Shown: piece after piece, positions 6,105 to 55,019 of the stretch
How the letters are laid out: each line of letters opens with the position of its first letter
Numbering within the stretch: the first letter of the stretch is position 1
NCBI GenBank assembly: GCA_029260655.1
Contig: JAJDCU010000050.1
Location: 1-56,458, forward strand
Reading direction: 5' to 3'
Length of the DNA stretch: 56,458 nucleotides
DNA from: Phycisphaeraceae bacterium
GTDB lineage: Bacteria > Planctomycetota > Phycisphaerae > Phycisphaerales > Phycisphaeraceae
Program-made: the position numbers and the translations under genes
Notes under the pieces: model-generated
Seen by the model: only the letters and a program-made list of their open reading frames with translations
Database searches by the model: none
What the model was told of the DNA's origin: nothing

Positions 6105-6386
6105 ATGTCAGACACCGTCACCGTCCGCATCCCCACCGCACTGCGTCCGCAGGTCGGCGATCAGGAATCCCTGGAAGTCGCAGGCGGGACCGTCGCCGAC
6201 GTGCTGGGGTCGCTCAACAGCCAATACCCCGAGTTCGGCAAACGGCTGTACAAGGCCCAGGGCGAGCTCAACCGGTTCATTAACGTCTACGTCAACGACG
6301 AGGACATCCGCTTCATGGATAACCTCGCCACGGCGCTCAAGGGCGGCGACGAGGTCTCGATCGTCCCCGCCATCGCCGGCGGGTGA
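6105..6386 (+). CDS. MoaD/ThiS-family sulfur carrier protein (CysO-like)
   Basis: A 93-residue ubiquitin-fold protein ending exactly in the diglycine (PAIAGG) that the family adenylates and converts to a thiocarboxylate. The spacing FINVYVNDEDIRFMD...LKGGDEVSIVPAIAGG is close to that of CysO, the carrier that delivers sulfur to CysM in mycobacteria. No C-terminal extension is present, so no JAMM protease would be needed to expose the GG. It follows the threonine-synthase-like gene by 54 bases and shares its operon with a ThiF/MoeB-type activating enzyme (7357) and a cysteine desulfurase (9560). No other molybdopterin or thiamine genes are nearby, which argues against those pathways. Confidence 0.9.
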   Translation: MSDTVTVRIPTALRPQVGDQESLEVAGGTVADVLGSLNSQYPEFGKRLYKAQGELNRFINVYVNDEDIRFMDNLATALKGGDEVSIVPAIAGG

Positions 6387-6393
6387 GTGGGGG

Positions 6394-6562
6394 ATAACCA
6401 CAGAGGCGCAGAGACACAGAGAAGAAAGGGATATAATCCACAGATTACACAGATGACACAGATTTATGGCAGGCGTGGTGTCTCCGCACTCATAATCTGC
6501 GACATCTGCATAATCTGCGGATACCCTCATGTTTTCTATGCAACCTTTGTGGTGAGATAACC
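6394..6562. repeat. nested palindromic intergenic repeat, copy A
   Basis: The left part reads ACCACAGAGGCGCAGAGA then ATCCACAGATTACACAGAT. The right part carries the complements (CATCTGCATAATCTGCGGAT, then a decayed TTTGTGGT). Related copies lie at 28083-28234, 39962-40133 and 56060-56198. This copy is inside the sulfur operon, between the carrier gene and the NIL gene. Its right end supplies the GGTGAG (6551-6556) that is the only Shine-Dalgarno-like sequence for the NIL start codon. Confidence 0.8.
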
Positions 6563-6563
6563 A

Positions 6564-6818
6564 ATGCCAAAGATTACGAATAAATCCTGGTTGACCTTTG
6601 AGGGCGGGCGGCAGAACGAGCCGTGCCTGTGGAAGATGGCGACGCGATTCCCGGGCGTGTTGTTCGACATCCGCCAGTCCAGTGTGCAGGCGGACATCGG
6701 GATCATGGCCGTCCTGTTCGAGGGCGAGGAGGACGAAGTTAAGGCGGCGCTGGATTACCTTGTTGAGCTAGGCGTCCGCGTCGATCCGGTCGAGGGCGGC
6801 AGCAACGTCGCCGGGTAG
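6564..6818 (+). CDS. NIL-domain protein
   Basis: An 84-residue single-domain protein matching the NIL domain (ferredoxin-like fold) known from the C-terminus of the methionine importer ATPase MetN, where it senses methionine. The central phrase GVLFDIRQSSVQADIGIMAVLFEGEEDEVKAAL fits the family, including the variable NIL-like triplet region (DIG). Free-standing NIL proteins also occur with homocysteine-forming enzymes in methanogens. Here it lies between the sulfur carrier and a YpeA-type acetyltransferase under a SAM riboswitch, pointing to a methionine-binding regulatory role or participation in the sulfur relay. The start at 6564 directly abuts the palindromic repeat. Confidence 0.85.
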   Translation: MPKITNKSWLTFEGGRQNEPCLWKMATRFPGVLFDIRQSSVQADIGIMAVLFEGEEDEVKAALDYLVELGVRVDPVEGGSNVAG

Positions 6819-6911
6819 GTCCGGTGGATTCCCGGGTCAGGCTCCGGGGGGGATTCCGGGGGTGGACTCCGGGGACGGGTCAGGGGTTACACCGACAGAA
6901 GGAATCGAGCC

Positions 6912-7346
6912 ATGGCATTTGAGATCAGGCCGTATCAGGAGCCGGACATCACGAGCGTCGTTGCGCTGTGGGAGCGATGCGGACTGGTCGTGCCGCACAA
7001 CGATCCGCACAAGGATATCGAGTTGAAGGTCCGTTTCCAGCCCGAGCTATTCCTGATCGCTCAACTGGACTGGCAACTGGTCGGCACGGTGATGGCCGGC
7101 TACGAAGGCCACCGCGGCTGGCTGAATTACCTGGCCGTCGACCCCGAGCACCAGCGCAAAGGTTACGGCCGGCGGCTGGTCGACGCCGCGGAGAACCGTA
7201 TGCGTGAGCTTGGCTGCCCTAAGGTGAATTTACAGATACGCGGGACTAACAAGCAGGCCCTGGCGTTTTACCGGGCCATCGGTTACGTCACCGAGGACCG
7301 CATCGGGATGGGCAAGCGCGTCGAACAGCCCGAATCGTCCGAGTAA
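6912..7346 (+). CDS. ypeA: GNAT acetyltransferase, YpeA family
   Basis: A 144-residue GNAT N-acetyltransferase. Its layout follows enterobacterial YpeA closely: VALWERCGLVVPHNDPHKDIELK at the start, VGTVMAGYEGHRGWLNYLAVDP before the acetyl-CoA site, and the motif A loop HQRKGYGRRL (Q/RxxGxG/A). It ends with the helix-strand LAFYRAIGYVTED. The substrate of YpeA is not established. An AT-rich-free 93-base spacer with a GGGGGGATTCCGGGGG-like run precedes it, and the ThiF-like gene follows after about 10 bases. Membership in the sulfur operon is positional; an acetyl acceptor in amino-acid or thiol metabolism is possible but not shown. Confidence 0.88.
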   Translation: MAFEIRPYQEPDITSVVALWERCGLVVPHNDPHKDIELKVRFQPELFLIAQLDWQLVGTVMAGYEGHRGWLNYLAVDPEHQRKGYGRRLVDAAENRMRELGCPKVNLQIRGTNKQALAFYRAIGYVTEDRIGMGKRVEQPESSE

Positions 7347-7356
7347 GAAGATTGAT

Positions 7357-8511
7357 GTGGATACGATGAGTCAAGATCTGGAACGCTACCACCGACAAAT
7401 GCTCCTGCCCGGCTTCGGCGAAACGGGGCAGCGCAGACTCATGGACGCGAAGGTCCTGGTCGTCGGCTGCGGCGCGCTGGGTACGGTGATCGCCAACATG
7501 CTCGCCCGCGCCGGCGTCGGGCACCTGGTCATCGTCGATCGTGACTTTATCGAGATCACCAACCTTCAACGGCAGGTGCTGTTCGATGAGAGCGATGTGA
7601 CAGAGGGCATCCCCAAGGCCGAGGCCGCCAAGCGTAAGATCGCGGGGATCAACTCGCAGGTCACCGTTGAGGCGATTGTCGATGATGTGAATCATACAAA
7701 CATCGAGAAGCTCGCCACCGGGCTTGAGGGTGTCGGCAAGGTCGACCTGATCATGGACGGAGTGGACAATTTCGAGACGCGGTATCTCGCCAACGACGTC
7801 GCGGTCAAGCACGGGATTCCCTACATCTACGGCGGGGCGGTCGGGACGGTCGGCGCGTCGTATGCGATCCTGCCCCACACCGCGCCGCCGGGCGAGACCG
7901 GCGATACACCTTGGGAAAAGGCCGAGCGGGCTACGCCGTGCCTGCGCTGTATCTTTGAGCAGGCCCCGCCGCCTGGCGTGAACCCGACCTGCGACACCGC
8001 CGGCGTCATCGGGCCCGCCGTCTCGATCGTCGCAAACTACCAGGTCGCCGAGGCCTTGAAGGTCCTCACCGGGAACCTCGACGCGGTCAGCCAGACCATG
8101 CTGAACATCGACCTGTGGGCTAACGTATTCAAGCAGTTCAAGGTCGCACGGGCCTACGACGTCGGCGAATGCGAGTGCTGTAAGAAACGCAACTTCGAGT
8201 TCCTCGACGGCAAGTTCGGCAGCTCGACCACGACCCTCTGCGGACGCAATGCCGTGCAACTGAACCTGAAATCGGCGGACGACGATTCATCGGCCGCAGG
8301 CAACGGCCACAAGCTCGACTTCACCGAGATCGCCAAGCGCCTCGAAGCGCACGGCAGGGTTACCGCTAATAAGTTCATGCTCCGCGCCGATATCACCGAC
8401 AACGGCGAGCCTTATGAACTGACCCTCTTCAACGACGGCCGGGCGATCGTCAAGGGCACCAAGCACGCCAATGTCGCCAAGAGCATTTACGCGAAATACG
8501 TAGGGGCGTGA
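7357..8511 (+). CDS. ThiF/MoeB-type E1 sulfur-carrier adenylyltransferase
   Basis: A 384-residue E1-like enzyme that would adenylate the C-terminal glycine of the carrier and transfer sulfur to it. Visible features: the RYHRQMLLPGFGETGQ start typical of MoeB/ThiF, nucleotide loop GCGALG (about residue 38), NLQRQVLF with the key Arg, and DGVDNFETR. Zinc Cys pairs are CLRC (about 195) and CECC (about 270). There is no rhodanese domain; instead an approximately 100-residue C-terminal domain ends KHANVAKSIYAKYVG, resembling Bacillus-type MoeB/ThiF. The missing rhodanese fits a cysteine desulfurase (9560) as the direct sulfur donor. Start GTG 7357 has AAGAAG upstream; ATG 7366 is an alternative. 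Confidence 0.92.
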   Translation: MDTMSQDLERYHRQMLLPGFGETGQRRLMDAKVLVVGCGALGTVIANMLARAGVGHLVIVDRDFIEITNLQRQVLFDESDVTEGIPKAEAAKRKIAGINSQVTVEAIVDDVNHTNIEKLATGLEGVGKVDLIMDGVDNFETRYLANDVAVKHGIPYIYGGAVGTVGASYAILPHTAPPGETGDTPWEKAERATPCLRCIFEQAPPPGVNPTCDTAGVIGPAVSIVANYQVAEALKVLTGNLDAVSQTMLNIDLWANVFKQFKVARAYDVGECECCKKRNFEFLDGKFGSSTTTLCGRNAVQLNLKSADDDSSAAGNGHKLDFTEIAKRLEAHGRVTANKFMLRADITDNGEPYELTLFNDGRAIVKGTKHANVAKSIYAKYVGA

Positions 8512-8554
8512 ATCGTATTTTTGTGGGGATCATCATCAGTAAGGAGTATCGGAT

Positions 8555-9046
8555 ATGGCTATCGACAGCACCGTGAATCACAGCTTCCATTTCAGCGTCG
8601 GGTTTCTCAAGAGCCTGCTGGAGGGGATCGACACTGACAAGATGGCGCACCAGCCCAGCCCCGGGATGAACCACCCGGCGTGGATCGTGGGGCACTTGGT
8701 GACCGCGATGGAGTTCGGCGCGAAGCTCGCCGGCGCAACGTACAAGGCCCCCGACGGATGGAGCGATCTGTTTGGGATGAAGTCCGAGCCCAGTGACGAC
8801 GGCTCGAAGTATCCAGACATGACGACTCTGCTGGCGGAATTGGATAAATCAGTGGCGGCTGTGATGCCTTCGCTGGAGTCGATCGGTTCCGATGCCTTGG
8901 CGGCGCAGATGCCCGACGAGGGCTTCCGCAAGATGATGCCGACGGTCGGCGACGGGCTGACGTTCCTCATCAACGGCCACATCGCGATGCACGTCGGCCA
9001 GCTCTCGGCCTGGCGCCGCGCCTGTGGGATGCCGGCTTTGTTTTAG
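8555..9046 (+). CDS. DinB-fold (YfiT/DinB_2) protein 1
   Basis: A 163-residue four-helix-bundle protein of the DinB superfamily. The metal-binding histidines are visible in NHPAWIVGHLV (about residue 50) and in NGHIAMHVGQLSAWRR near the C-terminus. Characterised members are often thiol-dependent transferases (bacillithiol, mycothiol), and the fold also forms the N-terminal part of EgtB. This is notable because the gene sits in a sulfur operon next to a second DinB-fold gene sharing HPAW and HxGQLSAWRR. It follows the ThiF-like gene by 44 bases. The substrate is unknown. It is unrelated to the DNA polymerase IV gene dinB at 40167. Confidence 0.85.
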   Translation: MAIDSTVNHSFHFSVGFLKSLLEGIDTDKMAHQPSPGMNHPAWIVGHLVTAMEFGAKLAGATYKAPDGWSDLFGMKSEPSDDGSKYPDMTTLLAELDKSVAAVMPSLESIGSDALAAQMPDEGFRKMMPTVGDGLTFLINGHIAMHVGQLSAWRRACGMPALF

Positions 9047-9074
9047 ATCTTGATCTTTCTTTTAGGAATGCATT

Positions 9075-9563
9075 ATGTCCAGCGCGATCGAAGGGCTGCT
9101 GTTTGGTTGGAACAAGAACCTTGATTACGGCCAGAAGCTGGTCGCGGACCTGTCTGACGAGCAGATGGGTGTGCAGCCCGGTCCGGGTATGAACCACCCG
9201 GCGTGGGTTCTTAGCCACCTCAACGCCTACCACCCGGTGATCGAGCACGTGGTCAAGGGCGAGTTGTTCGACGACCCCAAGGATCATCCGTTTGGGATGA
9301 AGAGTAAGCCGCAGGCCGACCGTTCGGTGTACGCCTCGAAGGATGAGTTGGTGGCTGACTTTGTGTCCGGCCATGAGCGGGTCGAGCGGGCGCTTCGTGA
9401 GGCGTCGGATTCGGTGTTGGATCAGGCGGTGGTGTTGCCGCGTTGGCAGCAGTTCATGGCCACGGCCGGGATCGCGCTGCCGTACCTGATGCTGGTCCAT
9501 GAGAACACGCACTTCGGCCAGCTCAGCGCCTGGCGGCGCGTGCAGGGGCTGCCCAGCGTATGA
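9075..9563 (+). CDS. DinB-fold (YfiT/DinB_2) protein 2
   Basis: A 162-residue paralog of the preceding gene. It keeps the PGPGMNHPAWVLSHLNAYHPV motif around residue 40 and the terminal HENTHFGQLSAWRRVQGLP, so the metal triad is intact, but the middle helices differ strongly. The two genes are 28 bases apart and may form a heterodimer or act on related thiol substrates. Its stop overlaps the ATG of the cysteine desulfurase by four bases (ATGA), which ties it to sulfur handling by translational coupling. The exact function is not predictable from sequence. Confidence 0.85.
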   Translation: MSSAIEGLLFGWNKNLDYGQKLVADLSDEQMGVQPGPGMNHPAWVLSHLNAYHPVIEHVVKGELFDDPKDHPFGMKSKPQADRSVYASKDELVADFVSGHERVERALREASDSVLDQAVVLPRWQQFMATAGIALPYLMLVHENTHFGQLSAWRRVQGLPSV

Positions 9564-10750
9564 GTGACGCGATGATCTACTTCGACAACGCCGCGACGAG
9601 TTTTCCCAAAGCGCCGGGCGTGAACGAGGCGATGAGTAAGTTCCTCGCCGAGGACGCCGCCAACCCCGGGCGGGCCGGGCACCGGATGGCGGTCGCCGCC
9701 GAGCAGATGCTCGATAACGTCCGGCTCAAGCTGACGCGGCTTTTTGTTGGCGACGACCCCAGCCGGATGGTCTTTACGCTCAATGGGACCGACGCGCTGA
9801 ACATGGCGATCAAGGGCGTGCTCGGCGAAGGCGGCGGCGCGCACGTCATCACCACAGAGCTGGAGCACAACTCGGTCAGCCGACCGCTGCAGGCAATGAC
9901 GGACCGCAAGACGATCGAGCTGACGCGCATCGCATTCGACGACGACGGCTTCATCGACCCCGATGATGTGTGCAAGGCGATCAAGCCCAATACCCGGCTG
10001 ATCGTGATGACCCACGCCTCGAACGTGCTGGGGACGATCCAGGACGCCAAGGCGGTGGGCGCGATTGCGCGCGAGCATGATCTGTTGTTCTGTCTGGATG
10101 CGGCGCAGACGGCGGGGGTGCTGCCGATCTCGATCAAGGATTTGCAAATCGACCTGCTGGCGTTCCCCGGGCACAAGTCGCTGCTGGGCCCGACCGGGAC
10201 CGGGGCGCTGTATGTCGGGGAGCGTTGTCCGGTTTCTTCTTTAGTAGTCGATGATGAAGCCCGACTGAATCCCTGGCGGGAGGGCGGCACCGGCGGAGAC
10301 TCTTCGACCCCGACGCAGCCGGCCGAGTTCCCGCACTACCTGGAAGGCGGTACGCCCAATACCGTCGGCATCGCCGGCCTGGGCGCGGGCGTCGAATACG
10401 TCAACCAGCAAGGCATCGGCAAAGCACTTGCCCACGAGCAAGCGATGGTCCAGACGCTGATCGACCGCTTCGCCGATGACGAGCGCTTCACTGTCTTCGG
10501 CACACGCGACGCCAAACGACGGGTCGGCACGCTGTCCTTGAACATCACCGGCTACGACGCCCCGGATGTTGGGTCGATATTGGATGATAGTTTCCAGATC
10601 GCGGTCCGCCCGGGTTTGCACTGCGCGCCTTACACGCACCGCCGTCTGGGCACGTTTCCCGACGGCGCGGTCCGTGTTAGTCCGGGTGCATTTAATACAG
10701 ATGAGCAGATCAACCAACTCATCGAGGCGCTCGATCAGATCGCGGGGTAA
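9560..10750 (+). CDS. cysteine desulfurase family enzyme
   Basis: A 396-residue class V aminotransferase-fold enzyme that removes sulfur from cysteine as a protein persulfide. It starts IYFDNAATSFPKAP, as in desulfurases. The PLP lysine is in FPGHKSLLGPTGTGALY (about residue 202) and the reactive Cys in RPGLHCAPYTHRRLGT (about 353). The overall form matches the IscS/SufS-related cysteine desulfurase family rather than IscS itself. It is the last gene of the run starting at the SAM riboswitch, overlaps the upstream DinB-fold gene by four bases, and is followed by a strong hairpin. No Fe-S scaffold genes are adjacent, so supplying sulfur to the local ThiF-like/carrier pair is the simplest reading. 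Confidence 0.92.
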   Translation: MSDAMIYFDNAATSFPKAPGVNEAMSKFLAEDAANPGRAGHRMAVAAEQMLDNVRLKLTRLFVGDDPSRMVFTLNGTDALNMAIKGVLGEGGGAHVITTELEHNSVSRPLQAMTDRKTIELTRIAFDDDGFIDPDDVCKAIKPNTRLIVMTHASNVLGTIQDAKAVGAIAREHDLLFCLDAAQTAGVLPISIKDLQIDLLAFPGHKSLLGPTGTGALYVGERCPVSSLVVDDEARLNPWREGGTGGDSSTPTQPAEFPHYLEGGTPNTVGIAGLGAGVEYVNQQGIGKALAHEQAMVQTLIDRFADDERFTVFGTRDAKRRVGTLSLNITGYDAPDVGSILDDSFQIAVRPGLHCAPYTHRRLGTFPDGAVRVSPGAFNTDEQINQLIEALDQIAG

Positions 10751-15942: not shown

Positions 15943-16578
15943 TTAAGCCAACCGGACCTTGATCTGCATCCCGTCTGCAAAGACCACGGACACGTCGGAC
16001 CCCGCCGGGATGACATCCGATTCGGACAGACACTCGCACCGCTTGCCGTCCAGCAGGCACACACCCACCGGGCGCAAGTCAGTCAACGCCTTGCCGCGTG
16101 TGCCGACCTCCACGCTCGATTCGTGTGTCGGCGCCGGCGGGGGGACCTGCTCGTCGTAGGCCGATTCCATTTCTTCGTCGATCGACCCGAGCGTCAGCGC
16201 ACGTCCGACCGGGGTGTGGGGCCATATCTTCATCGCACCGTACAGGGCAAACGGGATCGCCAACACCGAGAGGATCGCCCCGATCAGCCCCAGCGTTGTG
16301 TCGATCCGGAACAACATCACGATCCCGCCGATCAGGCTCAACGCGGCGCAAGCTCCCAGCAACCCGCCGGAGGGAACAAACAACTCGGCAAAGAACAGCG
16401 CCACCGCCACGCCGATCAGCACCACCGCCCAGAGGATCAGCTCATTCGTACCCGGGGCCGGGGCGTTGGCGGGTGCCTGCGCCAGTGTGGTGAAACCAAA
16501 GATGAGTCCCGAAGTATGCATCGCGCCGGTATTATCCTCCAAACCCGGGCCTACGCCAAGCCCAAGCAAAACGGTCAC
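15943..16578 (-). CDS. NfeD-family membrane protein
   Basis: A 211-residue (192 from the internal ATG at 16521) membrane protein with three to four hydrophobic helices ([54 protein letters not shown]) and a C-terminal OB-fold NfeD domain ([42 protein letters not shown]). NfeD proteins partner stomatin-like or ClpP-class membrane proteases; none is adjacent. The GTG at 16578 overlaps the stop of the isomerase gene by four bases, suggesting coupling, but ATG 16521 with an upstream GGAGG is the more usual start. Confidence 0.85.
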
Positions 16579-17609
16579 CGATCAAACTGGGCGTCGAACG
16601 CCAGGCCCGACGGCTTGAAGTCGATGGCATTGACAAAATCACAGGCCTCCGCCGCCCCGTGTTCGCGGTCCATCCGGCTGTCCTCCCACTCCACGCTCAA
16701 GGGCCCGGCATACCTTGCGTCGTTCAGTGCCACGATGATGTCTTCGAAGTCCACATCCCCGTGGCCCAAAGAGCGGAAGTCCCAGTAACGCCTGGGGTCC
16801 GCGAAGTCCGTATGCCCGCCGAACACGCCCACGCTCCCGTCGCCGTGGCCCCACCACACGTCCTTCATATGAACGTGGTAGATCCGGTCGGCGAACCGGC
16901 GGATGAACCGGATGTAGTCGACCCCCTGGTACGCCAGGTGCGACGGGTCGTAGTTGAACCCGAACCGCTTGTGGTTTTTGACCGCCTTGAGCGCTCGCTC
17001 GGCGGTGGCGATATCAAACGCGATCTCCGTCGGGTGGACCTCCAGCGCGAAGTTGACGTTGACCTTGTCAAAGGCATTGAGGATCGGCGTCCACCGCTTG
17101 GCGAAGTCGGCAAAACCCTTATCCCAGTAGGCCTGGTCGGTCGGGGGGAAGGCATAAATCGTGTGCCAGATGCTCGACCCGGTGAACCCATTGACGACGG
17201 CGGGATAGTCGTCCTTCTTCTTGCGCCCGGGCTTGCAGTCGATAAAGTTCCGGCAGGCCTTGGCGGAGGCGATCATCTTTCTGGCCGCGCGTTTGCGCAC
17301 GCCCTCGGGCTTACCGTCGCCCCAGACATCCTTCGGCAGGATCGATTTGTGTCGGGCGTCGATCAGGTCGCAGACCGCCTGCCCGACCAGGTGGTTGGAG
17401 ATCGCAAACGCGGTCAGCCCGTGGTCGGCGAGGATCTCCCACCGCTTCTTGCAGTACGCCTTGCTGCGCGCCGCCTGGTCCACATCGAAGTGGTCGCCCC
17501 AGCAGGCCAGCTCCAGCCCGTCGTACCCGAACCCCGCCGCCTTGGCGCAGAGGGTCTCAAACGAAAGGTCGGCCCACTGGCCGGTGAACAACGTAACGGG
17601 GCGCGGCAT
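16575..17609 (-). CDS. xylose-isomerase-like TIM-barrel sugar phosphate isomerase/epimerase
   Basis: A TIM-barrel protein of about 344 residues of the AP endonuclease 2/sugar isomerase family. It starts [21 protein letters not shown] with a GGAGG seven bases upstream, so 17609 is preferred over 17636. Metal and substrate residues appear in [10 protein letters not shown] (Glu), [13 protein letters not shown] (Asp/His), [10 protein letters not shown] and [10 protein letters not shown], the usual order for the family. These enzymes interconvert sugars or inositols and often accompany oxidoreductases, none of which is here. An approximately 160-bp copy of its 5' end lies beyond the peroxidase gene at 19941-20101. 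Confidence 0.88.
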
Positions 17610-17869
17610 CGGGCTTCCTCCAGGTTTCAGTATCAATTAATGTCACGAACAGTCGTCTAGTGTGGTCGGCCTGACCAATCTTGGCAAGCCACGGTATATG
17701 GGATGTCTGGGTGTGGTCATGGATCGGTTCAGAGAGCGACCACCCAAGTTTATCCTTGTGTTTTTTGAGATAACGAAATAGGATTTACATAGGTGCGCGA
17801 AATTGTGAGTGGCGACGGTCCTCGATTATGGGGCAAGCCGCGTACCTGGGGCTAGGGGGGCGGATTCAA

Positions 17870-17891
17870 CATCACACAACGCGTTGTGATG
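17870..17891. promoter_or_regulatory. palindromic operator-like site upstream of peroxidase
   Basis: CATCACACAACGCGTTGTGATG is a near-perfect palindrome (core CAACGCGTTG, arms CATCACA/TGATG), about 80 bases upstream of the preferred peroxidase start at 17973. The surrounding 17610-17972 region contains no gene. It includes the isomerase promoter region (17610-17694), which is duplicated at 20102-20186. Confidence 0.4.
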
Positions 17892-17972
17892 CCTAAGTGG
17901 CGGTTGGGAATATCCAGCGGGCGGTTCTCATGCAAAGTGGGTGGTTTATTACATGATGATGGAGGTGCGTCC

Positions 17973-19916
17973 ATGAAGTCTGCCCCCTTCCTGTCAGTCT
18001 GGGGAGCATCTTTGATCGCAGCCGCGGTGCTGCTGCCGGTGGGGATAGTCTTCGCGGTCGATGCTCGGAGCATTGACGGGACGGGCAACAACCTTCTAGT
18101 CGCTTCCCAGGGTTCGGCCCAGACGCAGGTCATCCGTTGCTGCTACCCCGCGGCATACCCCGACGGGTTCGGCGATTCCATCGCAAGCATCTTCCAGCCT
18201 AACGCCCGCGATGTCAGCAACGCTGTGAACGCCCAGACCGGGGATCTTTTCAATGACCGCGGCCTCTCAGATTGGGTCGTCCAGTGGGGTCAATTTCTTA
18301 CGCACGACATGGACCTGACCGGAAACAGCGCCTCCAACAACACGCTCTCAACCGGCGCTCTAGGTGACTTCAGCATCGCGATCAACGATCCATCGGACCC
18401 GCTTGGGCCCAACCCGATCCCCTTCAACCGCTCTAATTACGACCCCGCGACCGGGACCCCTGACGTGATCATGACGCCTAACGGGTCTGCGCTCAACGTT
18501 CGGCAGCAGATGAACGCGGTGACTTCCTACATCGACGCGTCCAACGTCTACGGGTCAGGCAATACACGGGCGTCGGCCCTGCGGACTTTCAGTGGTGGAG
18601 AGATGGCAACATCTGCGGGCGGGCAGCTGCCGCCGCTGAACACTGCGGGCCTTGACAACGACGATCCGTTCGGGCTCGGAGCCTCTCTGTACCTCGCCGG
18701 TGACGTCCGGGCTAACGAGCAGGTCGGGCTTACCGCGACACACACACTTTTTGTCCGAGAGCACAACCGATTGGCCGACCTGTTCCAGGCGCAGGCCCCG
18801 GCGATGTCCGACGAGGATATTTACCAGACGGCACGCAAGATTGTCGGTGCCGAGATCCAATCGATCACCTACAACGAGTTCCTCCCGGCTCTGTTGGGGG
18901 CCTCCGCGCCGAGCGCCGGAGACTACGTGTACGACGACCAGGTCGACGCCTCGATCACCAACGCCTTCTCGACCGCGGCCTTCCGCTTTGGGCACAGCAT
19001 GCAATCACCACAGCTCAAGCTCGTGAACAACGGCGGCGAATCTGTCGGGGCCCTGTCGCTCAGAGATGCTTTTTTCGATCCGACCATCCTGGGCAACAAC
19101 CCATCGAACGTCGAACTCGTCCTCAAAGGGCTCGCCGCTCAGACATCACAGGAACACGACGCGGCCCTGGTCGACGACATCCGCAACTTCCTGTTCGGCC
19201 CGCCCGGCGCAGGCGGGATGGACCTGGCGGCGCTGGACATCCAGCGCGGCCGGGATCACGGCTTACAGAGGTACAACACCGCGAGGTTTTTCTACGGGTT
19301 GCCCACGATAGGTAGTTTTGCCGAGCTCACCTCAGACACCGACCTGCAGGCCGCGCTGGCATCGGTCTATGGCTCGGTTAATCAGATCGACTTGTGGGTC
19401 GGTGTCATCTCCGAAGATCATCTTGCCGGGTCGAGCGTCGGCGCCCTGACCCACGCGATCATCGCGGATCAATTCACCCGCCTGCGCGATGGAGATCGCT
19501 ACTTCTATACCGGGGACACGGACCTGCAAAGTCCGCTGGTCACATCTGTGATCGATCTGAACGGGGTCACTTTGTCACAGATCATCCAGCTCAACACCGG
19601 GCTGACCAGCCTGCAGGATAATGTGTTCTTCGCGTACGATGCGCTGGTGGGTGATTGTAACGGCGACGGGTTTATCGGGATCGAAGACCTGAGCATCATC
19701 CTCGGCGCTTGGAATATGAGCGTGACCCCCGGCAACCTGCTGGAGGGCGACACGAGTGGTGATGGGTTCGTCGGGATCGAAGACCTCAACGCGGTGCTGG
19801 GCAACTGGAACGCGGGCGCGCCGCCAGCTTCAGGGCTGCTCACCACCGTCCCGGAGCCCGGTACGCTGATGTATCTCATGGCGGGTCTGCTGGTAGCACG
19901 CAGGCGAGGCGTTTAG
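17973..19916 (+). CDS. secreted animal-type heme peroxidase with dockerin-like repeat and PEP-CTERM tail
   Basis: An exported heme peroxidase of about 647 residues. ATG 17973 has GGAGG seven bases upstream and starts a normal signal peptide; the frame is open further up but without a ribosome site. Peroxidase landmarks: distal His in [12 protein letters not shown], Arg in [12 protein letters not shown], proximal His in [10 protein letters not shown], and [10 protein letters not shown]. After the catalytic domain come two calcium-loop repeats ([14 protein letters not shown] and [14 protein letters not shown]), then [20 protein letters not shown], a PEP-CTERM sorting signal. It would be exported, cleaved by exosortase and surface-bound. 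It lies between the isomerase gene and a duplicated isomerase fragment, suggesting it arrived by insertion or rearrangement. Confidence 0.9.
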
Positions 19917-20101
19917 AATCCCCGCCACACCCACCGGCCCTTGCAGTACGCCTTGCTGCGCGCCGCCTGGTCCACATCGAAGTGGTCGCCCCAGCAAGCC
20001 AATTCCAGCCCGTCGTACCCGAAACCCGCCGCCTTGGCGCAGAGGGTCTCAAATGGAAGGTCGGCCCACTGGCCGGTGAACAACGTGACGGGACGCGGCA
20101 T
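19913..20101 (-). pseudogene. duplicated 5' fragment of the isomerase gene
   Basis: Positions 19941-20101 repeat 17449-17609 at a constant offset of 2492 bases with about eight differences. They encode the first about 53 residues of the isomerase ([21 protein letters not shown]...), then leave homology and stop after WVWRGF next to the end of the peroxidase gene. The homology continues upstream at the same offset, more diverged, to about 20186. It cannot encode a TIM barrel and is a truncated copy. Confidence 0.9.
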
Positions 20102-20153
20102 CGGTAACTCCTGGCGTTTGGTAGGGGATCAAACCGGACAACTCCCGGCTAGT

Positions 20154-49650: not shown

Positions 49651-50277
49651 ATGTCCAGCAGCCATCAGAAAAAGATCATCGACCGTTACTACGACAACCA
49701 CGACACGATCCAGAGCGACAAGCTCAGCCAGATCGTCTCTGACCTCTGGCTGGCTGAGGAAGGCACGAACACGACCAAGCTCTGGGGCAAGGCCCAGGTT
49801 GCGCTGATGCGGATGGGGGTCGATGCCAACCGGGTCGCTAAGGCGGTGGGGGACCGCAACGTCGAGGCGCTCGCCGCGCTGGTCGCCGAGGTGGACGCCA
49901 ACGGGAAAAAGGAACCATCCCCGGACTCCTCCGCTCAGGCTAGCGAGACGGATCACAAAGCCCGCGGCGCGGTGCCCGTGGATGAGACCCGGACGGTCAA
50001 ACAGATGCAGGCCGACAAGGCCGCCGAAGGCGGGCACGACTCGCTGGACAAAGACAACCTCAAGCGCGCGCTCAAGGCCTTCCGAAAGAAACTCAAGAAC
50101 GCCCGCCGCGACGACGAATCAAGGCTGGGCAGCCGCTACACGACCTACGGCAAAACCTCCAGCATCTCCGCCATCACCCCGCCGAACCAGTACCCCGCCG
50201 CCGTCTGGGAAAAACTCACCGAGGAAGGCCGGCTCAAGAACGCCGGTCAAGGGACATACGAGTTGCCGGAGGGGTGA
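49651..50277 (+). CDS. conserved-looking protein of unknown function
   Basis: A 208-residue cytoplasmic, charged protein. The N-terminal 85 residues (KKIIDRYYDNHDTIQSDKLSQIVSDLWLAEEGTNTTKLWGKAQVALMRMGVDANRVAKAV) form a compact helical domain; a Ser/Asp/Pro linker follows, and the C-terminal 80 residues (LKRALKAFRKKLKNARRDDESRLGSRYTTYGKTSSISAITPPNQYPAAVWEKLTEEGRLK) are highly basic and may bind nucleic acid. I do not recognise the family. It starts about 150 bases from the divergent tRNA and stands alone. Confidence 0.75.
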   Translation: MSSSHQKKIIDRYYDNHDTIQSDKLSQIVSDLWLAEEGTNTTKLWGKAQVALMRMGVDANRVAKAVGDRNVEALAALVAEVDANGKKEPSPDSSAQASETDHKARGAVPVDETRTVKQMQADKAAEGGHDSLDKDNLKRALKAFRKKLKNARRDDESRLGSRYTTYGKTSSISAITPPNQYPAAVWEKLTEEGRLKNAGQGTYELPEG

Positions 50278-50295: not shown

Positions 50296-50925
50296 TCAGA
50301 AAAAATACCACTGGATCGCACACACCAGCATCAGTAGTGCCGAGAGCGCAAACGAGACGATCACGGAGATCAACAGGATCAGCCAGAAGATCGGGTTGAT
50401 CATCAGGGCGACCAGTCCGAACGCACCGATGATGCCGGTAGTCTCGTCCGATAGCTCCTGCATCTTCCAGAGCACCTTGCCCAGAAATAGGTATGACCGC
50501 CAACGCTTAAAGAGCGTCAGGCCACCCCTGCTCAGTTCCGTCATTTCTTCACTGTAACCCGACACCGAACGGATCGCGTCGTCGGCTGTGTCGGCGATCT
50601 GATTGGGTAATGCGGAAACCGCGCTAAGGATGTGGTGGTAGATCCAAATCACCATGGTGGGAATCAGCAAGAGGATCAGCGGCACGGGGGTCCACAGCCA
50701 GGAGTGTCCGTGATACACCACAAAATACCACTGAAAAAAAGCGAGCGAAGTGACATTGAGAAATGTCACCAGATACACAACGATCAGGCTGCCCCGTGAA
50801 GTGGCCGCCAGGGTTTCAGTGAATCCGACCAGACGGTCGCGCAGTTCAGCAATCTGCTGGGAATCCAGCGAGACAAAGTCGGTGACAGAGCTAACGGCGT
50901 CCGGAATCATAGAGGGGTTTATCAT
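50296..50925 (-). CDS. integral membrane protein of unknown function
   Basis: A 209-residue protein with two N-terminal helices (about 47-70, 78-97) and two more at the C-terminus (about 165-205), separated by a charged central loop (NQIADTADDAIRSVSGYSEEMTELSRGG). No known motif is seen. Coding is supported by the coherent hydrophobic profile and the lack of a competing frame. It is convergent with the preceding gene, 19 bases away. Confidence 0.6.
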   Translation of the reverse strand: MINPSMIPDAVSSVTDFVSLDSQQIAELRDRLVGFTETLAATSRGSLIVVYLVTFLNVTSLAFFQWYFVVYHGHSWLWTPVPLILLLIPTMVIWIYHHILSAVSALPNQIADTADDAIRSVSGYSEEMTELSRGGLTLFKRWRSYLFLGKVLWKMQELSDETTGIIGAFGLVALMINPIFWLILLISVIVSFALSALLMLVCAIQWYFF

Positions 50926-50956: not shown

Positions 50957-51157
50957 TCAAGTCATCATCGCTATCGCAGCAAAAGAGCCGGGCAGGAGTA
51001 GCAACAGCAGCACCGGCAGACACCCGGACTTCTTCCCCTGTTTCTTCGCGTCGCGGTCGTAGGACCAGACCATGGCGGCGACGTAGAAGAGGCCGAAGAT
51101 CGTGAGGATGATGACGACGGGGATAAAGAGGATGGGGTCGCTGAAGAGGTCGGACAT
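50957..51157 (-). CDS. small two-helix membrane protein
   Basis: A 66-residue protein: TM1 (about 11-32, IPVVIILTIFGLFYVAAMVW), a short basic loop (SYDRDAKKQGKKSG) and TM2 (about 47-65). The helix-loop-helix with a positively charged loop is typical of small inner-membrane proteins. No family is recognised. It lies 32 bases upstream of the 209-residue membrane protein on the same strand and may share its transcript. Confidence 0.6.
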   Translation of the reverse strand: MSDLFSDPILFIPVVIILTIFGLFYVAAMVWSYDRDAKKQGKKSGCLPVLLLLLLPGSFAAIAMMT

Positions 51158-51232
51158 GGGGTTACTGTAATGTGTTTAGCCGCGCCTTGGAAGGGGGCAT
51201 ATTTACGCAAGTGCAGTGGTAGATAAAGAAAA

Positions 51233-51259
51233 AAGCCCACGTTTTTAAAACGTGGGCTT
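51233..51259 (-). terminator. hairpin terminator, original topA terminator candidate
   Basis: AAGCCCACG (51233-51241) and CGTGGGCTT (51251-51259) pair around a TTTTTAAAA centre that can also pair. The minus strand then runs into TTTTTTCTTT. It lies 28 bases past the stop of the topA fragment, where the native topA terminator would be, and shares its arms with the terminator at 10776-10804. Confidence 0.8.
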
Positions 51260-51287
51260 CGTTTATGGATGAAGAATGTCTTAGCAA

Positions 51288-51499
51288 TCACGCCGCCTCG
51301 GCGTCGGCACTCTCCGGCGCGGGCTGGTCGGCGACGGTGGGGGCGTGGCCCTCGTCAACCACCTTTCCTTCCACGGTCTTGATCTGGGGCACGGGGTTTT
51401 CTTTTCTCGTGCTTGCTCCAGGACTTTTCAAGCTCCGCCTGCTTGTCCTCTTCGACTGCCGACCACGCTAAACGTCCACGGCACTTGGGGAACGCCGAT
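51288..51499 (-). pseudogene. displaced and frameshifted 3' fragment of topA
   Basis: Read on the minus strand it gives FPKCRGRLAWSAVEED-AELEKSW-KHEK, then after one extra A (around the GAGAAAAGAAAAC run) ENPVPQIKTVEGKVVDEG...VADQPAPESADAEAA. This is the C-terminus of the TopA encoded at 52097-54823, clearly diverged. Homology ends abruptly at 51499. It has no start and one frameshift, so it is a remnant. Confidence 0.88.
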
Positions 51500-51526
51500 T
51501 AACTGAAGACGCTGGTTAGACCACTA

Positions 51527-51751
51527 CTACCCTTTGCTTCGTAGAATATCTACGACTCTTTTAGAAGCGACTATACACTCGGCCGCCGTCATTTCATACT
51601 TCATGCCGAATTCTTCGCAACACGGCTGGCATGCGCGAATTCCCGATGAGCTACGGGCTGCTTCGGCTTCGTTCCTCGGTGTCGGACCTGCAAAACCAGG
51701 TATCACATAGATGCTTTCAACCAGTTTGTCACAAATTGGACATGCTATCAT
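51527..51751 (-). CDS. small CxxC protein, possible zinc finger
   Basis: A 74-residue protein beginning MIACPICDKLVESIYVIPGF, with a second Cys cluster ACQPCCEEFG about 30 residues later. Four or five Cys in two pairs suggest a small zinc-binding fold. AAGGA lies six bases before the ATG, supporting real translation. Base composition of this stretch is visibly lower in GC than its surroundings. It sits between topA and a displaced topA 3' fragment, so it is likely part of an insertion. Family unknown. Confidence 0.6.
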   Translation of the reverse strand: MIACPICDKLVESIYVIPGFAGPTPRNEAEAARSSSGIRACQPCCEEFGMKYEMTAAECIVASKRVVDILRSKG

Positions 51752-52096
51752 CAGTATTCCTTTTTGGGATTGGGCAAAGGTCTCAGGAAGTTATGGAACA
51801 CTATTCTCTCCAACCGATATCCATCGAGTTACACAGACTTTGAGCATTCTGGCACAAGAATGCTTGGTGTGTGATAGACGTTGATGCAAGCTGGCTATCC
51901 TGATTTAGGCATCATCTTCAATTCGATTGCTAGATGCCTATACCTATGCCGTTGTCCGAATTGAACACAATAACTATTCTAGGCGGTTTGTGTACTGGTG
52001 GATACTGGGCATAGGTCGGTTTTTGTGAACGAGGATAGCTCCGCCTGGGAAGGCGGGATTACACGTGGGAGTTGTGATAGACAGTTCGAACAGTGT
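51752..52096. other. low-GC spacer between CxxC gene and topA, no gene seen
   Basis: This stretch contains no convincing reading frame. It is AT-richer than the rest of the window. A small hairpin CCGCC-TGGGAA-GGCGG lies near 52042-52057 without a following T-run, so the intact topA gene has no obvious terminator of its own. Confidence 0.5.
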
Positions 52097-54823
52097 TTAC
52101 GCGGCGTCGGAGGCGGTGGCGTCTGCGTCGGCGTTCTCGAGCGCGGGTTGGTCGGCGATCAGTGGGACGTAGCCCTCCTCGATCACCTTGCCGTCGGTGG
52201 TCTTGACCTGCGGGACCGGGTTTTCTTTTTCGTGTTTGCGCCAGGCCTTTTCAAGCTCGGCCTGCTGGTCTTCCTCGACGGCGGACCACGCCAGCCGTCC
52301 CCGGCACTTGGGGAATGCCGAGCAGCTCAGCCAGAGCCCGCGCTTGGAGTTTCGCATGTTCAGCGGGCTGGATTCGCACTTGGGACATTCGATGTCCGTC
52401 AGGAACGGCGGGGTCTTGGGCAGCTTGATCGTGCCCTTTTTCGGGTCGATGTTGACGATGCCCTTGCAGGTGGGGTAGTCGGCGCAGCCCAGGAACGGGC
52501 CGAAGCGTCCGGTGCGTTTGGTCATACCCTTGCCACATAGCGGGCAGAGGATGTCGGTCATCGCCGGCTCGACGGGGTTGCCCTCGCGGTCGATCGGCGC
52601 GGCGTAGTCGCAGCCCTCGCCTTTTTTGATGAACGTGCTGCACGACAGGAACCGCCCGTTCTTGCCGAACCGGTACATCGTCCCCGAACCACACTTAGGG
52701 CAGTCGTGCGGCGCAGGTTCGGTGACGGCCTTGGCGTGGTCCAGTTCCTCGTGTGCCTTGTCGAGGTTTTCCTTGAACGGTCCATAGAAGTCGGTGAGCA
52801 TCTGACGCCAGTCGTGGTGCTCTTCCTCGATCTTGTCGAGTTCCAATTCCATGTGGCGTGTGTAGGCGGTGTCCATGACCTTGGGGAACGCCTCGACGAG
52901 CATGTCAGAGACGACGAGACCCAAGTCGGTCGCCGCCAGGCGTTTGTCGCGCGGGAACAGGGGCTCGACGTACTTTCGGTCCTGGATGGTCTGGATGATC
53001 GCGGCGTAGGTCGAGGGCCGGCCGATGCCTTCTTCTTCGAGCTTCTTCTGAAGCGAGGCCTCGGTGTAGCGCGGCGGCGGGCTGGTGAAGTGCTGGGTCG
53101 GATCGACCTTGATCGGACCGAGTTGCTGTTCTTCCTGCAACGGCGGAAGGATCACATCATCGCCGCCGTTGGGCAGGCCCATCGCCTTGTAGAAGCCGTC
53201 GAACGCCAGCGTCCGGCCGGTTGCTCGGAAGGCGGCTTGAGACTTAATGCTTGGGGCTTGAGCGGTAATCGTGATCGCGGTCGAGTCCCACTTGGCCGGG
53301 GTCATCTGGCACGACACGAAGCGGCGCCAGATCAGGTCGTAGAGCCTGAACTGCTGGTCGTTGAGTTTGCTGCGCACCGATTCGGGCGTGATCGAGATGT
53401 CGGTGGGGCGGATCGCCTCGTGCGCTTCCTGCGCGTCTTTGTTGCTGGAGGAATAGAAGTTGGGTTTATCGGGGAGGTAGTCCTTGCCGTAGCGATCGCC
53501 GATGTAATCCCGCGCCATGCTCAGGGCTTCGCCGGTGAGGTGCGTGGAGTCGGTACGCATGTAGGTGATCAGGCCGGTCTGCCCGCGTGCCCCGCCCAGG
53601 TCGACGCCTTCGTAGAGGCTCTGCGCGACACGCATGGTGCGCTGCAACTGGAACCCAAGGCGGTTGGCCGCCGCCTGCTGCATCGTGCTGGTGATGAAAG
53701 GCGCCGAGGGCTTGCTGGTGGTGCGCTTGGTCTTGATCGAATCGATCTTGAACTTGGGCGCATCGCCCGCGACATGGCCGAGGTACTTGCACAGGCTCTT
53801 GGCGGGGCCCTTGCCTTTAGGGTCATCGGTTTCGATCATGTCGTCGAGCGCCATGCCCAGCATATGCGCCGCGTCGAGTGCGGCCTGGCGGTTGTCGGGT
53901 TTGAACGGCTTGCCTTCGAACTCGGTAAGCTCGGCCTTGAGGCAGGCGTTCTCACTGAGCCAGGCGTTTTGCTGCTTGATCGTCGGGTCTTTGACCTCGG
54001 CTTGCTCGGCGAGCCACTTGTCCCAGGCCTTGGTCAGCGTGGCGGTCTTTGCAGGATCGGTCGCGAATAGCCCGGTGATCTTCCAGTATTCATCCGGCAC
54101 GAAGGCGTCGATCTCACGCTCGCGCTCGACGACCAGACGCACGCCCACCGACTGCACACGGCCCGCGCTCAACCCCCCGGCGACCTTCTTCCACAGTAGC
54201 GGCGACACCTGGTAGCCGACGATCCGATCCAGGATCCGCCTTGCCTGCTGCGCGTCGACCCGGCAGCCATCGATCCCGCGCGGGTGCTCAAACGCCCGGG
54301 CGATCTCGCTCTTGGTAATCGCGTTGAACACAACCCGCTTGGCGCTCTGGAACGGCACGCCAAGCGCCTCGGTCAGATGCCAGGCGATCGCCTCACCCTC
54401 GCGGTCGAGGTCGGTCGCGAACCAGACGTCCTTGGCCTGCTTGGCCGCCTTCTTCAGCGCGGTCACGGTCGCCTTCTTGTCCTTGAGCACCTCGTAGGTC
54501 GGCTCGAAGTGGTTCTCCAGGTCCACGCCCGGGACCGGGTTTTTCACGCCCTTGGGGTTGCGCGGCGGCAGGTCGCGGACATGCCCGACGCTGGCCATCA
54601 CCACGTAGTCCGGGCCCAGGTACTTATTAATAGTCTTGGCCTTGGTCGGGCTCTCGACGATGACCTGGTGCTTGCCCGTGGCGTCCACATCCACCGGGCT
54701 GCGCCGCCCCCCGGATCGCCCGCCCGCACCGCCCTTCTTAGCCGGAGCCTTCTTCTTGGCCGGGGCCTTCTTGGCGGGGGCTTTCTTCTTCGTCTTGGAG
54801 GTCTTGGTGGTCTTCTTGGCCAT
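52097..54823 (-). CDS. topA: DNA topoisomerase I
   Basis: A type IA topoisomerase of about 908 residues that relaxes negative supercoils. ATG 54823 starts MAKKTTKTSKTKKK; the open frame begins 17 codons earlier. A histone-H1-like tail of KKAPAKK repeats (residues 1-45) precedes TOPRIM (VIVESPTKAKTINKYLG, DLDREGEAIAWHL). The active Tyr is in GLITYMRTDSTHL and EEEGIGRPSTYA is intact. Three C-terminal zinc ribbons follow (CPKCGSGTM, CPLCGKGM, CPKCESSPL) and a charged tail. A diverged copy of its 3' end lies downstream at 51288-51499. Confidence 0.96.
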   Translation of the reverse strand: MAKKTTKTSKTKKKAPAKKAPAKKKAPAKKGGAGGRSGGRRSPVDVDATGKHQVIVESPTKAKTINKYLGPDYVVMASVGHVRDLPPRNPKGVKNPVPGVDLENHFEPTYEVLKDKKATVTALKKAAKQAKDVWFATDLDREGEAIAWHLTEALGVPFQSAKRVVFNAITKSEIARAFEHPRGIDGCRVDAQQARRILDRIVGYQVSPLLWKKVAGGLSAGRVQSVGVRLVVEREREIDAFVPDEYWKITGLFATDPAKTATLTKAWDKWLAEQAEVKDPTIKQQNAWLSENACLKAELTEFEGKPFKPDNRQAALDAAHMLGMALDDMIETDDPKGKGPAKSLCKYLGHVAGDAPKFKIDSIKTKRTTSKPSAPFITSTMQQAAANRLGFQLQRTMRVAQSLYEGVDLGGARGQTGLITYMRTDSTHLTGEALSMARDYIGDRYGKDYLPDKPNFYSSSNKDAQEAHEAIRPTDISITPESVRSKLNDQQFRLYDLIWRRFVSCQMTPAKWDSTAITITAQAPSIKSQAAFRATGRTLAFDGFYKAMGLPNGGDDVILPPLQEEQQLGPIKVDPTQHFTSPPPRYTEASLQKKLEEEGIGRPSTYAAIIQTIQDRKYVEPLFPRDKRLAATDLGLVVSDMLVEAFPKVMDTAYTRHMELELDKIEEEHHDWRQMLTDFYGPFKENLDKAHEELDHAKAVTEPAPHDCPKCGSGTMYRFGKNGRFLSCSTFIKKGEGCDYAAPIDREGNPVEPAMTDILCPLCGKGMTKRTGRFGPFLGCADYPTCKGIVNIDPKKGTIKLPKTPPFLTDIECPKCESSPLNMRNSKRGLWLSCSAFPKCRGRLAWSAVEEDQQAELEKAWRKHEKENPVPQVKTTDGKVIEEGYVPLIADQPALENADADATASDAA

Positions 54824-55019
54824 CGGTATCGGGGTACTCGGTCTCGGGTCGGGCCGGGATTGCTCTGCTTTCATCGGTCCGATTATGGTGGGACACTTGA
54901 GCAGCCCAAGGCGGTATTGTCAAGTCTCTTCTCTAAATACTGTATATACAACGGAATACGGGTCGTCCCCGGAAGGCTTCGGCCAGGGAGGGTTTGAGGA
55001 TGTGACCCCGGATCGGAGC

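Follow-up and report, generated by a model that had tools for sequence, protein, structure and literature searches.

Prophages e14 and phage 21 integrate in the icd gene, replace its 3' end and carry both an integrase and an att core. Homology-facilitated illegitimate recombination (HFIR) has been described in species with natural competence and in E. coli conjugation (PMC3240628), and it has been suggested as a source of short variable segments (PMC2884548). For the type VI secretion system (T6SS) arrays of Vibrio cholerae, an HFIR-like process has been proposed in which the old 3' end of an effector gene is shifted back, and the same work also mentions orphaned 3' regions of Rhs loci (PMC5361080). 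The present analysis concerns a displaced 3' end of topA in a Phycisphaeraceae bacterium, within a stretch of 56,458 nucleotides (GenBank assembly GCA_029260655.1, contig JAJDCU010000050.1, positions 1 to 56,458; hereafter the window, meaning the whole stretch), where the intact gene is followed by a low-GC insert and then by a second, broken copy of its tail. Judged from the sequence, we consider it probable, though well short of certain, that DNA of a relative entered by homologous recombination within topA on one side and by an illegitimate join on the other. A literature search on Phycisphaerae together with natural transformation and homologous recombination gave, among the 8 papers listed of 1,186, none with the word Phycisphaerae, and it is not claimed here that such displaced gene ends, or scars, have gone unreported in this group.

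Layout of the topA locus

The elements of the locus follow one another along the minus strand, from topA through an insert of 589 bases, the second tail and a terminator to a gene for a 66-amino-acid protein. They are listed below, with the intact tail designated a and the displaced one b.

52097 to 54874, minus strand: topA, intact, 925 amino acids (open reading frame; Pfam Toprim, Topoisom_bac and Zn_ribbon_Top1)
52097 to 52321, minus strand: intact tail a of topA, codons 852-925 plus stop, divergent and probably imported (sequence comparison)
52041 to 52056, minus strand: weak GC hairpin just past intact topA, without a T run (fold and hairpin reading)
51508 to 52096, minus strand: low-GC insert, 589 bases, GC 0.47 (composition; genome search)
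51527 to 51751, minus strand: CxxC open reading frame of 74 amino acids within the insert, coding doubtful, without credible relative (open reading frame list, searches)
51289 to 51507, minus strand: remnant b of the probably native topA tail, truncated, with an in-frame stop at its start and one frameshift (clear similarity at 51289-51500)
51232 to 51260, minus strand: intrinsic terminator of the original topA, 13-pair stem (fold; congener alignment)
50957 to 51157, minus strand: 66-amino-acid membrane-protein-like gene, directly 3' of topA in all four congeners with topA (congener comparison)

Copy b corresponds to about the last 70 codons of topA, has no gene body, lies behind an in-frame stop and contains one extra base; in a self-search of the window it is 81% identical to tail a over 205 bases (expectation value, E, 2e-46), a similarity far beyond chance. 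The terminator, read from 51260 to 51232, folds with -19.2 kcal/mol, and none of 200 shuffled sequences folded equally well. These results bear out the order given by a first-pass annotation of the window, namely topA, low-GC DNA, a diverged and frameshifted tail copy and a strong terminator, while its remark that intact topA lacks a terminator of its own needs the correction that the weak hairpin at 52041-52056, which the terminator scan does not include, follows the gene. Stems resembling the terminator (88-93% identical) occur elsewhere in the genome of the window (designated G000), at G000:C20:13877-13909, C43:115348-115376 and C50:10772-10805, and five Rfam matches, all around the terminator, were below gathering scores and were dropped.

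The genus comparison covered five other genomes, four of which contain topA (Phycisphaeraceae bacterium OFTM29, OFTM374 and OFTM41, and Planctomycetota bacterium Dive100_bin3.48; topA loci labelled L038, L039, L040 and L047), the fifth, G002, having no topA match. In all four congeners with topA the 66-amino-acid gene stands directly after topA, with neither the insert nor a second tail, and in three of them (L038, L039 and L040) hairpins align with the terminator at 51232-51260, as judged by eye from the alignment. Because these congeners lack the insert and the second tail, the adjacency of tail, terminator and 66-amino-acid gene is ancestral and the DNA between topA and b is new, which, by synteny in four of four congeners, speaks for b as the older 3' end. 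Among the other genomes that contain a topA tail, 96 in number, none showed a second one (E 0.001); this search covered 101 genomes, of which 98 matched and 97 were counted, G002 being left out because its only match is a zinc ribbon (E 9e-4), and 96 remain without the window's own genome. A gene for 209 amino acids at 50296-50925 has a relative beside the 66-amino-acid gene in L039 only among the four congener loci (60% identity), a pattern from which the stretch behind topA appears to vary in other ways too.

With a GC of 0.47, versus 0.626 for the whole window, the insert forms the most GC-poor region there, only 19 of 55,870 segments of the same length being lower, and its DNA was found in none of 200 other genomes. 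Searches of open reading frames and profiles revealed no integrase or transposase in 51508-52096, where the single doubtful frame of 74 amino acids has no recombinase match, and no tRNA was found in the insert; the presumably acquired DNA shows no recombinase of its own. Of the CxxC gene that had been read there, the open reading frame is present and its status as a gene is in doubt, given that a frame at least as long, on either strand, arose in 611 of 2000 shuffles and that its third-position GC is 0.42 versus 0.72-0.88 in four neighbouring genes. It has no credible relative and may be no gene at all, and a single-sequence fold gave a mean predicted local distance difference test score (pLDDT) of 57. 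Phage, plasmid or viral matches to it were not found; Yippee-Mis18 (E 0.067) and phrog_6504 (E 0.006) were weak candidates and were rejected as chance. Matches in 104 other genomes among 400 (E up to 0.1, best 6.9e-6) and in 4 others among 392 (E up to 0.01) were likewise dismissed as chance, because the realigned loci show no shared gene (23 loci named for realignment, 15 alignments obtained, six frames inspected for 5 loci). Lying between topA and its old terminator, the insert is probably co-transcribed with topA.

Ancestry of the two tails

Copy b is probably the native one, by synteny and for the most part also by sequence, and most of its amino acids are preserved. At sites where the four congeners are identical to one another, 14 differences are unique to a and 5 to b (209 shared columns); the larger count would be expected of a long-dead copy, yet b has fewer. 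Compared with the congeners, tail a shows an identity of 0.746-0.775 and tail b one of 0.775-0.828. Over 61 codons the unique changes comprise 7 silent and 3 replacement changes in b, and 7 silent and 10 replacement changes in a, and the small number of replacements in b (three or fewer of 10, P 0.0035, assuming that 75% of random changes are replacements) indicates that b was under selection until recently. Between a and b the synonymous divergence (dS) is 0.90, the nonsynonymous divergence (dN) 0.117 and dN/dS about 0.13, and congener pairs have dS 0.58-1.34; as both tails are constrained and their divergence is about that between species, they would most simply have evolved in separate genomes. 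Along topA itself, 3 differences in codons 781-851 are found in this genome alone, as are 18 in the codons from 852 to the end, the corresponding figures for the four congeners pooled being 25 and 24 (Fisher P 0.007), and a change-point scan above codon 600 gave a permutation P of 0.043. In a protein tree of the tails, built with 26 relatives (L020 and L026 omitted as their motif differs, L028 as no open reading frame was found), both tails fall within the genus (98/94), with end branches of 0.30 for a and 0.10 for b. That intact tail a is the imported version appears well supported by these comparisons, although not proved. A mosaic with a crossover inside the tail was also considered, and no crossover point emerged from the comparison.

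According to the explanation that we favour, the recipient ancestor would have possessed topA with tail b, its own terminator and the 66-amino-acid neighbour, as in the congeners, and DNA of a related lineage, carrying its topA tail and the sequence behind it, would have entered the cell. At one end, homologous recombination inside topA, at or upstream of codon 852, would have kept the frame and gained the donor tail a, while the other end of the incoming DNA would have been attached, with no true homology, within the tail that the recipient already had. Of the latter only b would have been left, a fragment lacking its head, and the insert would have come to lie between topA and its old terminator. 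The process would be HFIR or, closely akin to it, a single crossover of a small circularised fragment, which would yield the same product. At the presumed homologous junction topA is in frame and tail divergence rises at about codon 852, and at the presumed non-homologous junction the insert abuts tail b at codon 852, with no clear topA match upstream by eye. A ComEC-type competence gene is present in this genome.

Several observations speak against this explanation. No donor of tail a and the insert was found, and neither joint is provable. The excess of unique sites in a over b (14 versus 5) gives only P 0.03 one-sided, and the two tails are about equally divergent in codons 852-888, the bulk of the excess in a lying beyond. 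ComEC occurs in 10 of 14 control genomes, so that its presence is little informative, and the sample of scars at other genes is small and was partly chosen because scars had been seen there. In the protein tree of the tails, the free topology pairs a with b, weakly (85/83), some states are common to a and b only, and a grouping of b with the four congeners is not favoured, although not rejected (approximately unbiased test, p-AU 0.16). Tree shape alone is indecisive, because a and b are joined, yet the alternative is not rejected.

Both the weak pairing and the states common to a and b only would follow from an ordinary tandem duplication of the topA tail with subsequent insertion and divergence, and on this point the phylogeny, which the first-pass annotation had named as a possible refutation of its own proposal, gave an unclean outcome. 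Such a duplication is nevertheless very improbable. If recent, it requires near-identical copies, yet dS is 0.90, and it is counted as refuted; if old, b should have decayed, yet it shows only 3 unique replacements in 61 codons, and no trace is left in any of the four congeners. Moreover, the low-GC insert lies between the copies, and the self-search of the window gave no second copy of it.

A further difficulty for homology-anchored import concerns the sequences to the right of the joint, which rank the relatives differently from genes farther out. Identity to L038, L040, L047 and L039 is 79.4, 78.3, 76.7 and 75.0% for miaA, and 85.3, 85.2 (partial match), 83.6 and 79.8% for the gene at 49651-50277, with values of 85.6, 85.5, 83.2 and 83.4% for the topA body (L039 and L047 nearly equal). 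Tail b is nearest to L047 (identity 85.4), followed by L039 (82.7), L040 (80.9) and L038 (80.6), and the 66-amino-acid gene to L039 (87.8), followed by L047 (87.1), L040 (84.8) and L038 (83.5). The stretch 50957-51500 may thus have a separate history, possibly having been recombined further, or sequences of 150-200 bases may be too short for such a ranking. The same discrepancy could point to an artefact of assembly or binning by which contig pieces of two co-occurring congeners were fused, as could the species-level difference between a and b and the state of the genome, a draft of 83 contigs in which only about 5 kb of contig lie on the topA side of the joint. We regard this as unlikely: farther out, miaA and the gene at 49651-50277, one on either side, rank the four relatives alike; the window contains no N; a false join by overlap would require the two pieces to have sequence in common where they meet, which is not observed; and a separate genome, G003, has the same kind of scar.

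It is also rather unlikely that a site-specific element integrated at the topA 3' end, brought a replacement tail and later shrank to 589 bases or moved in trans. The geometry is equal to that of prophage e14 and phage 21 at icd, unique differences rise where the duplication begins, six tyrosine-recombinase (PF00589) matches exist elsewhere in the genome, all on other contigs, and close to their starts the two tails share an identical run of 14 bases, a candidate att core. This run, however, lies in conserved codons, the insert contains no integrase, its 74-amino-acid frame has no phage, plasmid or viral match, and there is no recurrence at topA, with no second tail in the 96 other genomes; the other scars, described below, hit heads as well as tails, in unrelated genes and with unrelated cargo. 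A dedicated element is unneeded, because homology-anchored uptake of a relative's DNA explains the scars. From the initial proposal of an integration that brought a replacement end, foreign DNA, a replacement tail and the retention of the old tail and terminator are thus supported as most likely, whereas the element itself is not supported, no integrase, no recurrence and no relative of the insert having been found.

Similar scars at other genes

Beyond topA, three further scars with the same geometry were observed. At other gene ends, where the first-pass annotation suggested a search for related segments, the arrangement thus recurs, whereas the cargo and the target genes are unrelated. The second scar of the window comprises the following features.

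16575 to 17636, minus strand: intact sugar-isomerase-like gene (AP_endonuc_2; open reading frame, Pfam)
17886 to 19916, plus strand: cargo, haem-peroxidase-like gene (An_peroxidase; open reading frame, Pfam)
19930 to 20104, minus strand: isomerase head remnant, with 93.7% identity to 17438-17612 (self-search)

This is the one other direct repeat in the window that joins a gene end with non-genic DNA, and among the six genomes a second isomerase head occurs in this one only. In the stretches examined from the congeners, the isomerase is accompanied by the peroxidase in G002 and G004 and lacks it in G003 and G005. Between the isomerase start and a point within the peroxidase, the window aligns with G002 at 66% over 430 bases. 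Identity to G002 is 0.854 for the intact head and 0.820 for the remnant, whereas the remnant is slightly closer to G004 (0.820 versus 0.792) and G005 (0.831 versus 0.820), and both are equal for G003; these values agree, though weakly, with a joint arrival of head and cargo. The sequences of G002 and G004 differ beyond the peroxidase gene, and comparison with them gave no position for the joint.

The other two scars are at prfB. On another contig of the same genome (G000:C72, locus L126, region 6219-9954), an OprB gene and an MCP gene stand between prfB and a remnant of its head (6219-6322, 82%). The gene adjoining this remnant is deoxyhypusine-synthase-like and stands about 190 bases before prfB in G004 and about 810 in G003, both without the cargo; G002 has the OprB and MCP cargo, but its contig ends inside it. 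The congener G003 has a second copy of the prfB tail, 516 bases after the stop of the gene (92.6% over 94 bases; G003:C157 80445-81059, loci L153 and L179), with DUF4258 and DUF2283 genes between the copies, which we take to be a possible toxin-antitoxin pair. The prfB programmed frameshift site reads CTTTAAC in four genus genomes (L126 at about 9921-9929; L130, L132 and L153), and thus has UAA where UGA is usual.

In total, the 456 kb covered in this genome yielded three clear scars, two within the window and one in 400 kb of other contigs. The 389 kb covered in two congeners yielded one, the 260 kb of these that belong to G005 being free of them, and the 400 kb of G043 and G010, which represent two other genera of the family, yielded none. 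These counts, sorted by eye, are too small and too selected for a comparison of rates, the G003:C157 stretch in particular having been fetched after its prfB tail had been seen. The scans excluded repeats inside genes, paralogues and tandem repeats, as well as repeats with neither copy in a predicted open reading frame (one pair in G000:C21, two in G005:C34 and one in G010) and protein fragments below 60% identity, including a tail-like one in G010 (43%) and one behind 8555-9046 of the window (46%). The prfB head was taken from the DNA scan, the protein scan having missed it, as its first codons are ahead of a frameshift.

Two other arrangements were seen during these scans. At 8555-9554 of the window, two diverged fragments resemble the 163-amino-acid open reading frame 8555-9046 and lie just behind it, and at L113 2261-3023 (G000:C43:82261-83023) direct repeats of 105 bases (93%) surround a Y1_Tnp-like frame upstream of recO, which was not counted as a scar.

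It is conceivable, albeit improbable, that the genus regularly gains accessory DNA as gene-end cassettes, in which the cargo comes linked to one end, head or tail, of a housekeeping gene, is guided to that gene by homology and leaves it functional by exchanging its end, while the old end persists as a legible scar; a specialised pathway for uptake or end joining might promote this. If typical, the single scar in 400 kb outside the window would mean roughly ten per genome in order of magnitude, which is a guess based on a single case.

Comparison with described systems

The findings add new cases to a known class of events and stand out because they recur at housekeeping genes. Through displaced gene ends, the entry of small, recombinase-free accessory segments into the chromosomes of uncultured bacteria leaves a record, and as such ends can tell the new copy from the native one, these events could become countable from genomes alone. 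Like the prophages of icd, the topA locus has the new gene end upstream and the old end downstream; unlike them, it has no visible integrase, and for an att core no more than the candidate run of 14 bases. With HFIR (PMC3240628, PMC2884548) it would share one homologous and one illegitimate end, but the donors of the laboratory events are known, whereas here no donor was found and the joint is deduced from sequence comparison. In arrangement it resembles the T6SS modules of Vibrio cholerae, for which a homology-anchored module, an illegitimate far join and an old effector 3' end or immunity gene pushed downstream have been described (PMC5361080); there, however, the ends belong to effector and immunity modules, whereas in the present genomes they are the ends of housekeeping and metabolic genes, with a cargo unrelated to the gene that received it.

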